A stretch of 43,843 nt of DNA from Leptolyngbyaceae cyanobacterium clean351 (GTDB lineage Bacteria; Cyanobacteriota; Cyanobacteriia; DAIDHW01): the NCBI GenBank assembly GCA_027451865.1, contig DAIDHW010000013.1:1-43843 (forward strand), read 5' to 3'. The translations under genes were made by a program, and so were the position numbers. The notes below the pieces were generated by a model that ran no database searches, was not told where the DNA came from, and saw only the letters and a program-made list of their open reading frames with translations. Of the stretch, positions 3,175 to 9,162 are shown one piece after another (position 1 is the stretch's first letter; the number at the start of each line of letters is the position of its first letter).

Positions 3175-4062
3175 ATGGTGGGGATAGTCTCCCGCCCAGT
3201 AGTGACTATGGAACCAGGTTTTCAGCTCACCTCTGAGGATGAGTTTTCCCCTCCCAAAAACCCCAAATCCGCCCCGGTAACTCCTAAGCGGTTGAAAAAG
3301 TCTGCCTACGAAGCGGCCATGAATCACCTGAAGCTTGAGCTAGTTAAGCTGCAGTATTGGGTCAAACACGTTGGCCTGCGGGTGGTGATCCTTTTCGAGG
3401 GACGGGATGCAGCGGGTAAGGGGGGGACAATTAAGCGGATCGTTGAGCCCCTCAACCCCCGAGGCTGTCGAGTCGTGGCCCTGGGCATACCTTCCAACCA
3501 CGAGCGCAGTCAGTGGTATTTCCAGCGCTACGTAGCCCACTTGCCAGCGGCGGGGGAGATAGTCCTATTTGACCGCAGTTGGTACAACCGGGCCGGTGTG
3601 GAACACGTGATGGGGTTTTGTACCCCTGAAGAGTACGAGGAGTTTATGCAGTCCTGCCCGGAATTTGAGCGGATGCTAGTGCGCTCGGGGATCATTCTGC
3701 TAAAGTACTGGTTTTCGGTCAGTGACGAGGAGCAGGAGCGGCGCTTCCAGTCTCGCACCCTGGACCCGGCCCGCCGCTGGAAGCTTAGCCCCATGGACCT
3801 GGTATCCCGTGATAAATGGGTGGAGTACTCCCGGGCCAAGGACGCCATGTTTGCCCGCACTAACATTCCGGAAGCGCCCTGGTTTACGGTGGAGGCTGAC
3901 GATAAGCCCCGGGCTCGGCTCAACTGTATTAGCCATATCCTCCATAAGATCCCTTACCAGGACATTACCCCCCCGCCCCTAGAGCTGACCCCCCGGGCCA
4001 AGGGGGCAGATTATGTCCGCCCTCCTAAGGAGGAACAGTTCTTTGTCCCCCAGGTGTACTGA
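3175..4062 (+). CDS. ppk2: Polyphosphate kinase 2 family protein (PPK2)
   Basis: PPK2 enzymes transfer phosphate between polyphosphate and nucleotides in the cytoplasm. At 295 aa this is the short, one-domain form. A Walker A-type motif (EGRDAAGKGGTIKRI) sits near residue 75. A Walker B region, FDRSWYNRAGVEHVMGF, lies around 130-147. A lid-like basic stretch (RRFQSRTLDPARRWKLSPMDL region) is near 190-208. The first ATG is used; a second ATG at 3208 is possible, and the first dozen residues are poorly constrained. The stop codon overlaps the pyrC start by one base (TGATG), so the two genes are probably translationally coupled. Whether the enzyme prefers ADP, GDP or AMP cannot be read from the sequence with confidence. 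Confidence 0.93.
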   Translation: MVGIVSRPVVTMEPGFQLTSEDEFSPPKNPKSAPVTPKRLKKSAYEAAMNHLKLELVKLQYWVKHVGLRVVILFEGRDAAGKGGTIKRIVEPLNPRGCRVVALGIPSNHERSQWYFQRYVAHLPAAGEIVLFDRSWYNRAGVEHVMGFCTPEEYEEFMQSCPEFERMLVRSGIILLKYWFSVSDEEQERRFQSRTLDPARRWKLSPMDLVSRDKWVEYSRAKDAMFARTNIPEAPWFTVEADDKPRARLNCISHILHKIPYQDITPPPLELTPRAKGADYVRPPKEEQFFVPQVY

Positions 4063-5393
4063 TGAATAGTAATGCTGGACTAGTAATCCGTCAAGCCCAG
4101 GTTCTGACCCCAGAGGGAGAATTGCAACGGCTTGATGTACAGACTGAGGGGCATCGGATCCTGCGGCTGGCCGACCATCTGCCGGCTGTCCTGCCTGGAG
4201 TGCGGGAGATACCTGCCCAGGGATTAACTCTCCTGCCCGGGGTCATTGACCCCCAAGTACACTTTCGGGAGCCCGGCCTAGAACACAAAGAGGACCTATT
4301 TACCGCCTCCTGCGCCTGTGCCCGGGGCGGGGTAACCTCCTTTTTGGAAATGCCCAACACCCGTCCCCTAACCACAGATCAGGCAGCCCTAGAGGACAAA
4401 TTGGCCCGAGCAGCGGCAAAGTCCCTAGTTAACTACGGCTTCTTTATCGGAGCCACGGCGGATAACCTAGCAGTCCTCAACAGCTGCGGTCCTACCCCGG
4501 GCATCAAGATATTTATGGGTTCCATGCATGGTCCCCTGTTGGTAGATCAGGACCAGACTCTCGAGGGGGTCTTTGCCCAGGGTCGCCGGCTGATTGCCGT
4601 CCACGCCGAGGACCAGGCCCGGATTGCCCAGCGCCGCCAAGCCTTAGCCGATGTTTATCATCCCGAGCTTCACTCCCTGATCCAGGACAACGAAGCTGCC
4701 CTGCTAGCCACCAAAAAGGTTCTAGCCCTCTCCCATAGGTACCAACGCCGCCTACACATTCTGCACCTGTCCACGGCCGATGAGGCGGAGTTGCTCTACC
4801 AGGATAAGCCTGCTTGGGTTACCGCTGAGGTTACTCCCCAGCATCTCCTCCTGGATACCACCGCCTATAACTATCTGGGGTCTCTGGCGCAGATGAATCC
4901 TCCCCTCCGGCGGCCGCGGGACCGGGCGGTGCTCTGGCAAGCCCTCCTAGAGGGGATAATTGACTTTATTGCCACTGACCATGCCCCCCATACTCTAGAG
5001 GAGAAGGCTCTGCCCTACCCCCAGTCCCCCTCCGGAATGCCTGGGGTAGAGACCTCCTTGCCCTTGATGCTCACCCAAGCTGTCCAGGGCCACTGTCGTC
5101 TGAGCCAGGTGGCTCACTGGATGTCCCGCGCCCCCGCCCTGGCTTACGGCATTCCCAACAAGGGACTAGTTACCCCCGGCTACGATGCTGATCTTGTGCT
5201 AGTAGACCTAGAGCATTACTACCCAGTCCGCCCCCAAGACCTGCAAACTAAGTGTGGCTGGAGTCCTTTCACCGGTTGGAACTTAACCGGCTGGCCGGTG
5301 GTAACTGTAGTGGGGGGTCAGGTAGCCTGGGACCAGGGGAGAGTTGACCCGACGGTGCGGGGACGTCCCTTAAGCTTCAACCCAAGGGAGTGA
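4062..5393 (+). CDS. pyrC: Dihydroorotase (PyrC)
   Basis: Dihydroorotase cyclises N-carbamoyl-L-aspartate to dihydroorotate, the third step of pyrimidine synthesis. The 443-aa protein has the amidohydrolase landmarks: DPQVHFREPG at 63-72, MPNTRP at 97-102, GIKIFMG at 147-153 (K149 is a candidate carboxylated lysine), AVHAED around H181, HILHLS around H232/H235, and the catalytic-aspartate motif ATDHAPH around D306. The first histidine of the usual HxH zinc pair is Gln65. I recall the QVHFREPG form from a dihydroorotase subgroup, so this need not mean loss of activity. The gene overlaps ppk2 by one base and the convergent GH16 gene by 17 bases. pyrD is also in the window but far away. Confidence 0.92.
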   Translation: MNSNAGLVIRQAQVLTPEGELQRLDVQTEGHRILRLADHLPAVLPGVREIPAQGLTLLPGVIDPQVHFREPGLEHKEDLFTASCACARGGVTSFLEMPNTRPLTTDQAALEDKLARAAAKSLVNYGFFIGATADNLAVLNSCGPTPGIKIFMGSMHGPLLVDQDQTLEGVFAQGRRLIAVHAEDQARIAQRRQALADVYHPELHSLIQDNEAALLATKKVLALSHRYQRRLHILHLSTADEAELLYQDKPAWVTAEVTPQHLLLDTTAYNYLGSLAQMNPPLRRPRDRAVLWQALLEGIIDFIATDHAPHTLEEKALPYPQSPSGMPGVETSLPLMLTQAVQGHCRLSQVAHWMSRAPALAYGIPNKGLVTPGYDADLVLVDLEHYYPVRPQDLQTKCGWSPFTGWNLTGWPVVTVVGGQVAWDQGRVDPTVRGRPLSFNPRE

Positions 5394-6138
5394 TGCTCAC
5401 AGCTGATACCTGCATGCGAGCGTAGCGGAAGTTCGGGGGTGGGTCACCGACAAAGTTTTGTGCGTCCCCTGTGCCAGTGCCAATAGCCAGCATCATCTTT
5501 TGGGGCGGGGCCCTAAATAGTTGGGGCTGGGTCAAGACCAGATGATTATCAACGTAGTAGTATAGGGTGCCCGGTTTCCACTTGAGGGTATAGGTGTGGT
5601 ACCCCCGGGTCCAGTCAGTCCCACGGGTGGTGTACGGAACCGAATGGGATAAGTCTTGGCCGTTAGCGGTGTAGTGCTGGGTAAGGTAGAGGGTCTGGGG
5701 GTTATTCCCAGTTACCTCCGCAAAGTCAACCTCCGGCGGCCAGGTGGTACCGTCACTGACAAATAGGCCTAGGTAACCAGTGACCCCCTGGCCCCTGGGG
5801 AACTTGGCCCTCACAGTCCAGGTGCCATAGTTTTGGGCATGGGCGGTGTAGGTGTCTAGGCCACCGGAGGAGTAAGGGAGGTGACAGGTATTGGGAGAGG
5901 TATCCACCACCAGGTTTAGGACCCCATTGGCTACAAAAGTATTACTGGCCATGAAGCAGTCGTTCTGGGTGGAGCGAAAGGGAGCACTATCATACACGTT
6001 CCAATTCCGGGTGCTGATCAGCCGCGAGAAGTTAGCTGACCAGCCGGTCATGGCTGAACTGACCCAGGCTGGCAGGATAAGCAGGGACGTCCCCCCCAGA
6101 AAACAGGCCAGAAGGTTTAAGTGACCTGGTTTGACCAT
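5377..6138 (-). CDS. Secreted glycoside hydrolase family 16-like protein
   Basis: This 253-aa protein has a hydrophobic N-terminal signal (about residues 7-29, likely cut after VSSA). The rest resembles the GH16 beta-jelly-roll of beta-glucanases and carrageenases. The family catalytic motif ExDxxE is present as PPEVDFAEVTG (E136 nucleophile, D138, E141 acid/base). GTWTVRAKFP and a WKPGTLYYYVD segment are also typical of GH16. It is probably exported to the periplasm or medium and acts on a beta-linked polysaccharide; the substrate cannot be inferred. It lies 9 bases after the methyltransferase gene on the same strand and is probably co-transcribed. Its 3' end overlaps pyrC antisense by 17 bases. 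Confidence 0.85.
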   Translation of the reverse strand: MVKPGHLNLLACFLGGTSLLILPAWVSSAMTGWSANFSRLISTRNWNVYDSAPFRSTQNDCFMASNTFVANGVLNLVVDTSPNTCHLPYSSGGLDTYTAHAQNYGTWTVRAKFPRGQGVTGYLGLFVSDGTTWPPEVDFAEVTGNNPQTLYLTQHYTANGQDLSHSVPYTTRGTDWTRGYHTYTLKWKPGTLYYYVDNHLVLTQPQLFRAPPQKMMLAIGTGTGDAQNFVGDPPPNFRYARMQVSAVSITPLG

Positions 6139-7886: not shown

Positions 7887-8330
7887 TTAAAGTCGGTTTC
7901 GATTAACTAGAGCCAAAAACTGGTCAGAGTTGACGATCCGCACTAGGTCGTGGCCTACAATGTAACGTGATAGTCCACCATTTAAGTAAAACTCCTTAAG
8001 CCTGGGCGTCCATCCCTCTCCTCCGAGAATGAGATAGGCGTAGGGAAAACGATTGTTACTGCTAACTAGGGTGTGAATCAGCTTGATAACCTCGAACGGT
8101 ATTTTTTGCTCAGCTGTGCCGCTCGTCTCCTGCCATTTCTGAGAGATAATTAGCCACTGGCCGTCTGGGGTCTCAATAACTCTATCGGGAATATGTCTAC
8201 CGCCGGTGATGCTAGGTGGCACGAAACGCTCATACTCTTTTTTCGGGATAATTCTGTATCCCTTCCGGGGTAAGACGTTATCAAAAAGTTGCTCAAATAT
8301 CTGTCCTGTATTAACTCCGGTCTTTGACAT
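7887..8330 (-). CDS. Small PD-(D/E)xK-type restriction endonuclease (putative)
   Basis: A 147-aa protein follows and overlaps the adenine methylase gene by 20 bases, the arrangement of a type II restriction-modification operon. A PD-(D/E)xK-like core is visible: PD at 48-49 in GGRHIPDRVIE, then a strand WLIISQKWQ with S63-Q64-K65 where (D/E)xK would stand. A helix SGTAEQKIPFE follows, carrying E75 and K76. I chose the ATG at 8330 (MSKTGVNTGQIF); the frame is open 25 codons further upstream, but that part lies within the methylase gene. The family and recognition site are unknown. The nuclease role is inferred from motif and context. Confidence 0.7.
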   Translation of the reverse strand: MSKTGVNTGQIFEQLFDNVLPRKGYRIIPKKEYERFVPPSITGGRHIPDRVIETPDGQWLIISQKWQETSGTAEQKIPFEVIKLIHTLVSSNNRFPYAYLILGGEGWTPRLKEFYLNGGLSRYIVGHDLVRIVNSDQFLALVNRNRL

Positions 8331-9162
8331 TCTGCACTCCCTTATGGGCGATGACCTCCCGGGCGGGTGTCCGGTCTCCCGTGCACGAAATTCTCCTGGG
8401 GGCATTCATGATCTTGACCTTGAAGCCCAGACGTTTATACAGGAATAGGATCCGGTCAGTTGCCTGGTTGGATAACACTACCGGGCCCGGGTGACGGGCT
8501 AGGAACTCACCTAGGCGCACCTGGTCATCCCAAGTAAAATCCGTCTTGCTGTACTTGGTAAACTCAACGTCGTAGGGGGGGTCGGCATAGATAAAGTCAT
8601 CTGGGTCAATTTCTACGGCCGCAAAATCACCACAAGAGAACTTCCACTTGGTCAGGACAGGCGGATAATCAGGAAATTCTTTGGCGTAGTTAATAGTCTT
8701 ATAGCGACCAAAAGGAACGTTAAACTCCCCCCGATTGTTGAATCGGCACAGGCCGTTGAAGCCAGTCCGGTTGAGATAATAGAAAAGTTGGGCAGCCTCC
8801 GGGCTTAGTTCCTGCCCCTGCTGGGTTAACTCGTTGAACCGTTGGCGGTGGCGGTAGTAGCACTCCTCATGGTTTTCTAGGGGGATGGTGATGGTTAAGC
8901 CCCTCTGGAGCCATTGGAAAAAATTGATCAGGTGAATATTGACATCGTTGAGCAGGGCGGCTTGGGGTTGCAATCCCAAGGTTACAGCCATCCCCCCTAC
9001 ACAGGGCTCAACCAGACGCCGTGCACTATGATTACGCCAGATTTCTTTTAGTGTTGGGACTAACCAGCGCTTTCCCCCTGCCCATTTTAGGGGGGGTGTC
9101 AGGAGGGTGGGGATGGTGACCGGCATCGGGTTTGGTTGCCTGCGCCGAGGTGTACTTACCAT
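8311..9162 (-). CDS. D12-class DNA adenine N6-methyltransferase
   Basis: This 283-aa protein is a Dam/DpnM-like methylase that transfers a methyl group from SAM to adenine in DNA. The SAM-binding motif is PPLKWAGGKRW (23-33), and the catalytic motif IV is DPPY (194-197). The segment FNGLCRFNNRGEFNVPFGRY is typical of this class. The ATG at 9162 has GAGG about 9 bases upstream; an in-frame ATG at codon 13 is an alternative. It very likely protects the host from the overlapping nuclease gene downstream. The target sequence cannot be deduced, although many D12 relatives modify GATC. The region looks more A/T-rich than its neighbours, consistent with acquisition by transfer. Confidence 0.9.
   Translation of the reverse strand: MVSTPRRRQPNPMPVTIPTLLTPPLKWAGGKRWLVPTLKEIWRNHSARRLVEPCVGGMAVTLGLQPQAALLNDVNIHLINFFQWLQRGLTITIPLENHEECYYRHRQRFNELTQQGQELSPEAAQLFYYLNRTGFNGLCRFNNRGEFNVPFGRYKTINYAKEFPDYPPVLTKWKFSCGDFAAVEIDPDDFIYADPPYDVEFTKYSKTDFTWDDQVRLGEFLARHPGPVVLSNQATDRILFLYKRLGFKVKIMNAPRRISCTGDRTPAREVIAHKGVQNVKDRS

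Follow-up and report, generated by a model that had tools for sequence, protein, structure and literature searches.

A compact predicted PD-(D/E)XK restriction nuclease with its active-site acid probably moved to the adjacent helix, beside a Dam-like methylase in a Leptolyngbyaceae cyanobacterium

How a catalytic acid can relocate in a nuclease without loss of function is a long-standing question, and it is raised by a small gene of Leptolyngbyaceae cyanobacterium clean351. The gene lies in a 43,843-nucleotide stretch of contig DAIDHW010000013.1, which is called the window here. What defines the PD-(D/E)XK superfamily is the fold, and variant active sites are tolerated within it (PMC6344858, PMC7337904). 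The original prediction was that the product is a compact restriction nuclease with S63-Q64-K65 in place of (D/E)xK, in which an acid on the next helix could replace the missing one. Is the protein a nuclease of this fold, and which residue could take over?

The minus-strand open reading frame of 147 codons was reproduced, as was its 20-base overlap with the gene of a D12 methylase (Table 1). The start codon chosen earlier is backed by the alignment with relatives, and the reading frame of the methylase gene is intact. The small size that had been pointed out is real, and it is typical for the Pfam family PF20472 (about 130-180 amino acids). The host genome (2.48 Mb, 98.8% complete) was searched, and this methylase gene was the sole Dam-family gene found. 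The flanking genes look like housekeeping genes, coding for peptide deformylase, a protein with a methyltransferase domain and a glycosyl hydrolase 16, and the closest relative is a Leptolyngbyaceae MAG. A type II restriction-modification system is recognized by a nuclease gene beside its cognate DNA methylase; here the two genes overlap, and the pairing is kept in many genomes. Judged by its organisation, the locus is an ordinary type II restriction-modification pair.

Table 1. Position of the two genes and of selected codons in the window
Feature	Positions	Strand	Basis
Nuclease gene, 147 aa, PF20472 PDDEXK_11, serine-type (SxK) active site	7887..8330	-	ORF, Pfam, relatives, predicted fold
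Dam-family D12 N6-adenine methyltransferase, 283 aa, likely GATC	8311..9162	-	Profile matches; Dam alignment
Overlap of methylase end and nuclease start, 20 bases	8311..8330	-	Direct reading
AGGGAG, putative RBS-like, ahead of nuclease ATG	8337..8342	-	Direct reading
E13 codon, N-terminal helix; conserved in 25/26 serine-type members; possible extra metal-site acid	8292..8294	-	Alignment
D49 codon, PD aspartate	8184..8186	-	Alignment
S63 codon, (D/E) position of (D/E)xK	8142..8144	-	Alignment
K65 codon, predicted catalytic lysine	8136..8138	-	Alignment
Q67 codon, invariant family-wide	8130..8132	-	Alignment
E74 codon (formerly called E75), family-wide acidic position, not the substitute	8109..8111	-	Alignment
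E80 codon, proposed relocated active-site acid, helix 73-90	8091..8093	-	Alignment and AlphaFold model

The nuclease matched PF20472 (PDDEXK_11) with 41.1 bits and an E-value of 1.8e-10, above the curated cut-off of 23.7, and hence belongs to this family. No model matched it in NCBIfam or PADLOC, a sequence search of the PDB set gave no solved relative, and a literature search found no paper naming PF20472. Structure prediction, which had been suggested as a check, gave a PD-(D/E)XK fold. The AlphaFold models reached pLDDT values of 83 and 89; the higher value was obtained with 14 aligned sequences (pTM 0.84), and the five models scored alike. The predicted core is alpha-beta-beta-beta-alpha-beta, that of the PD-(D/E)XK superfamily; in the model S63 and K65 lie on strand 59-66, and helix 73-90, which bears E80, comes next. 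When the model was compared with solved structures by Foldseek, the nearest were mostly PD-(D/E)XK nucleases, with EcoO109I (TM 0.60, probability 1.00), BstEII and the small subunit of BspD6I near the top. No match against the PDB fell below an E-value of 0.001, and since the best values were only ~1e-3, the fold assignment leans on the Pfam match and the pattern of Foldseek matches together. Of the canonical PD...(D/E)xK residues D49 and K65 are kept, S63 replaces the D/E, and the acid is at E80. The PF20472 match, the predicted resemblance to these three restriction enzymes and the conserved neighbouring methylase agree, and together they give good support to the assignment as a compact PD-(D/E)XK restriction nuclease whose active-site acid has apparently moved to the adjacent helix.

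To locate the substitute, an alignment was made of 73 family members, no two of them identical, which came from cyanobacteria, Chloroflexi, Bacteroidota, Bathyarchaeota, Deltaproteobacteria and viral contigs. Position 63 is serine in 28 of them, glutamine in two and glutamate in 42 (one is a fragment there). In the 28 S63 members, position 80 holds glutamate in 26, aspartate in one and threonine in one, the last being a duplicate copy in which K65 is also lost. Both Q63 members carry E80, so that an acid at 80 accompanies serine or glutamine at 63 in 29/30 cases, always with the same K65-x14-E80 spacing. Conversely, a non-acidic residue (A, L, T, I or V) stands at 80 in 41 of the 42 E63 members; the one exception, from Bathyarchaeota, combines E63 with E80. 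Of all the aligned columns, 80 alone gives a clean division between the S/Q and the E rows (score 0.96, against 0.79 for the runner-up). D49, S63, K65, Q67, G71 and K76 are invariant in the serine-type relatives counted (26/26), and P48 and Q64 are not conserved. From this covariation it can be deduced that E80, as K65-x14-E80, is probably the substitute for the missing (D/E)xK acid. The proposed relocation to the helix is thus probably right, with another residue than the one originally named.

The target was approached through the methylase, which scored 192 bits against TIGR00571 (cut-off 115). In a PDB alignment it keeps all of the E. coli Dam positions K9, L122, R124, P134, R137 and Y138, which we take to be the GATC contact residues. 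A Dam-like methylase adjoins the serine-type nuclease in cyanobacteria, Chloroflexi, Bacteroidota, Deltaproteobacteria, Bathyarchaeota and cyanophages, in most of the loci whose flanks were examined. At three Dehalococcoidia loci the partner is an unrelated beta-class methylase (PF01555), which points to partner exchange. The closest relatives of this enzyme in the PDB are CcrM, which has another target, and DpnA; it shares 52% identity with the second methylase encoded by pSRQ700, and LlaDCHI, the type II system of that plasmid, is related to DpnII. LlaDCHI and DpnII both cut GATC. Because the Dam contact residues are kept and the Dehalococcoidia partner is DpnA-like, GATC is quite likely the target of the pair. 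GATC-cutting enzymes, whether of this or of another family, have previously been predicted in some cyanobacteria (PMC4390886). Avoidance of GATC was also tried as a specificity test and set aside: in 728 kb of stretches of the host genome the observed/expected ratio of 0.84 is a mild scarcity that does not single GATC out, TGCA is also rarer, and among palindromes the strongest under-representation is that of CGCG (0.65) and CGTACG (0.41). In seven genomes of the same class, methylases 59-67% identical to the present one have no nuclease nearby and thus represent orphan forms.

Taken as a whole, a type II restriction-modification pair with a permuted PD...K...E nuclease and a probably GATC-specific methylase is in our judgement very likely. 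The methylase would mark adenine, most likely in GATC, and the nuclease would cut the same site, when unmodified, in foreign DNA, probably as a homodimer with Mg2+, as is usual for the fold. In the proposed active site, D49 and E80, the latter on the helix after the third strand, would hold the metal and K65 would assist catalysis, with S63 filling the slot of the canonical (D/E)xK glutamate.

Several other explanations were weighed. The acid first proposed as the substitute, the first glutamate in SGTAEQKIPFE, is residue 74 and not 75, which is a glutamine; E80 is the second glutamate of that stretch. E74 stands at the start of helix 73-90 and is conserved in 23/26 serine-type members, as a relocated acid might be. 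An acid at 74 or at the position beside it is, however, found throughout the family: nearly all E63 members, which need no substitute, equally have D or E at 74, and the three serine-type members with Q74 keep E80. The exchange therefore concerns E80 and not E74, and that E74 is the relocated acid is very unlikely. It could also be argued that S63 disables the nuclease, so that only the methylase keeps the pair in place, or that the former nuclease now serves as a binding protein. Canonical enzymes are usually inactive once the ExK acid is lost, and several cyanobacteria have close relatives of the methylase without a nuclease. Against this, serine-type proteins across several phyla and phages keep D49, K65, Q67 and the acid at 80, and the lone S63 copy without that acid also lacks K65, as expected of a dead copy. 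Since comparison with its nearest relative (71% identity) gave a dN of 0.20 with saturated synonymous sites, the present gene is under strong purifying selection. Loss of activity is hence a doubtful account, to which we give little credence.

The remaining alternatives accept an active nuclease and concern its substrate. The protein might not be the methylase's partner in restriction at all, and instead act on DNA that is methylated, damaged or branched; this would agree with the Foldseek list, which also includes NucS/EndoMS, Can2 and XisH-like members of the superfamily. The consistent one-to-one pairing with a methylase argues otherwise, the more so as it persists with an unrelated methylase class in Dehalococcoidia, and a nuclease of methylated sites next to its cognate methylase would be self-destructive; we regard this role as highly improbable. 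A restriction system with a target other than GATC is a less remote alternative. D12 methylases are not limited to GATC, the EcoRV methylase being an example, and the depletion of GATC in the host genome is weak. With the Dam contact positions kept and the alternative partner methylase DpnA-like, another target is nevertheless rather unlikely, and the permuted nuclease with a GATC methylase remains our preferred reading.

The nuclease can be compared with several known systems. The ExKWQ members of PF20472 (cyanobacteria, Chloroflexi, Bacteroidota) share with it the Pfam family, D49, K65, Q67, G71 and K76, and are often located beside a D12 methylase, as here; they have E63 and a non-acidic residue 80, whereas the present nuclease has S63 and E80. 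A permuted PD...K...D/E site is established in Cfr10I, Bse634I, NgoMIV, PspGI, EcoRII and others (the CCGG family), and Cfr10I was the first enzyme found with it (PMC6344858). The K65-x14-E80 arrangement would resemble Cfr10I, NgoMIV and PspGI in placing the acid after the lysine, although these enzymes recognize CCGG and the target here is probably GATC. No sequence similarity of the nuclease to the CCGG family was detected in the PDB set, and the R-(D/E)R recognition motif that follows the lysine in that family is absent, residues 66-90 containing no arginine. DpnII/LlaDCHI have a Dam-like methylase 32% identical to the present one and the same overlapping order, methylase then nuclease, but two methylases instead of one, and their nuclease is unrelated in sequence and has 304 amino acids versus 147. 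Membership of either the CCGG or the DpnII nuclease family was rejected for want of sequence similarity. Few solved structures come closer to the predicted fold of the nuclease than EcoO109I. In AvaII the (D/E)xK acid is replaced by Q161 (PMC7337904); there the glutamine itself is the ligand, whereas here an acid of the helix is proposed as the substitute.

The CCGG-family permuted enzymes differ strongly from canonical ones, which makes it difficult to trace how one form could lead to the other. In PF20472 the canonical, permuted and two-acid forms all occur in alignable proteins of ~150 residues. The permuted site is known from Cfr10I and NgoMIV; here it seems to switch inside one family. 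Since the original arrangement survives in close relatives, the family preserves a record of the switch, and it is these relatives that make the nuclease informative: how an acid relocates without loss of function becomes testable by a few point mutations. The protein would in addition be a restriction enzyme of very small size, probably specific for GATC, from a family in which no structure has been solved.

To trace the switch, a maximum-likelihood tree was built with columns 63 and 80 left out. The serine-type members form one group (100/98), with the archaeal E63/E80 copy inside it, and the Q63/E80 pair lies within the E63 group (81/93). The best tree would imply two gains of the helix acid. 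A tree in which the S and Q members and the archaeal copy were constrained together was not rejected (p-AU 0.27), nor was one that kept the S members as a group with the archaeal copy outside it (p 0.08). Two gains and a nested archaeal copy are therefore the best tree's reading only, and a single switch is possible. The tree is unrooted and hence gives no direction to the switch. Independent-pairs statistics covered too few events to be informative. We suggest tentatively, at somewhat less than an even chance, that two or more independent moves of the acid took place between the third strand and the helix after it (to Ser63/Glu80 and to Gln63/Glu80), with the two-acid form as a possible intermediate; the family would then offer a natural series of stages in the origin of permuted active sites in restriction enzymes. 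The Bathyarchaeota copy with both acids (positions 5001-5420 of its locus) has an in-frame TGA near the N-terminal part. A genome of the Chloroflexi phylum has two tandem family members, one of which combines S63 with K65M and no acid at 80 and is apparently dead.

Relatives of the nuclease were also looked for in mobile elements. A plasmid search found none, and in viral contigs a single-sequence query gave no relatives while an alignment query gave five. Matches were found in 39 phage records, and among the records listed the nuclease is annotated as a hypothetical protein. In the cyanophages S-RIM50 (locus 3986-4420) and ACG-2014b (locus 1968-2402) a serine-type nuclease lies beside a dam gene, possibly a phage-borne restriction pair directed against host or rival DNA.
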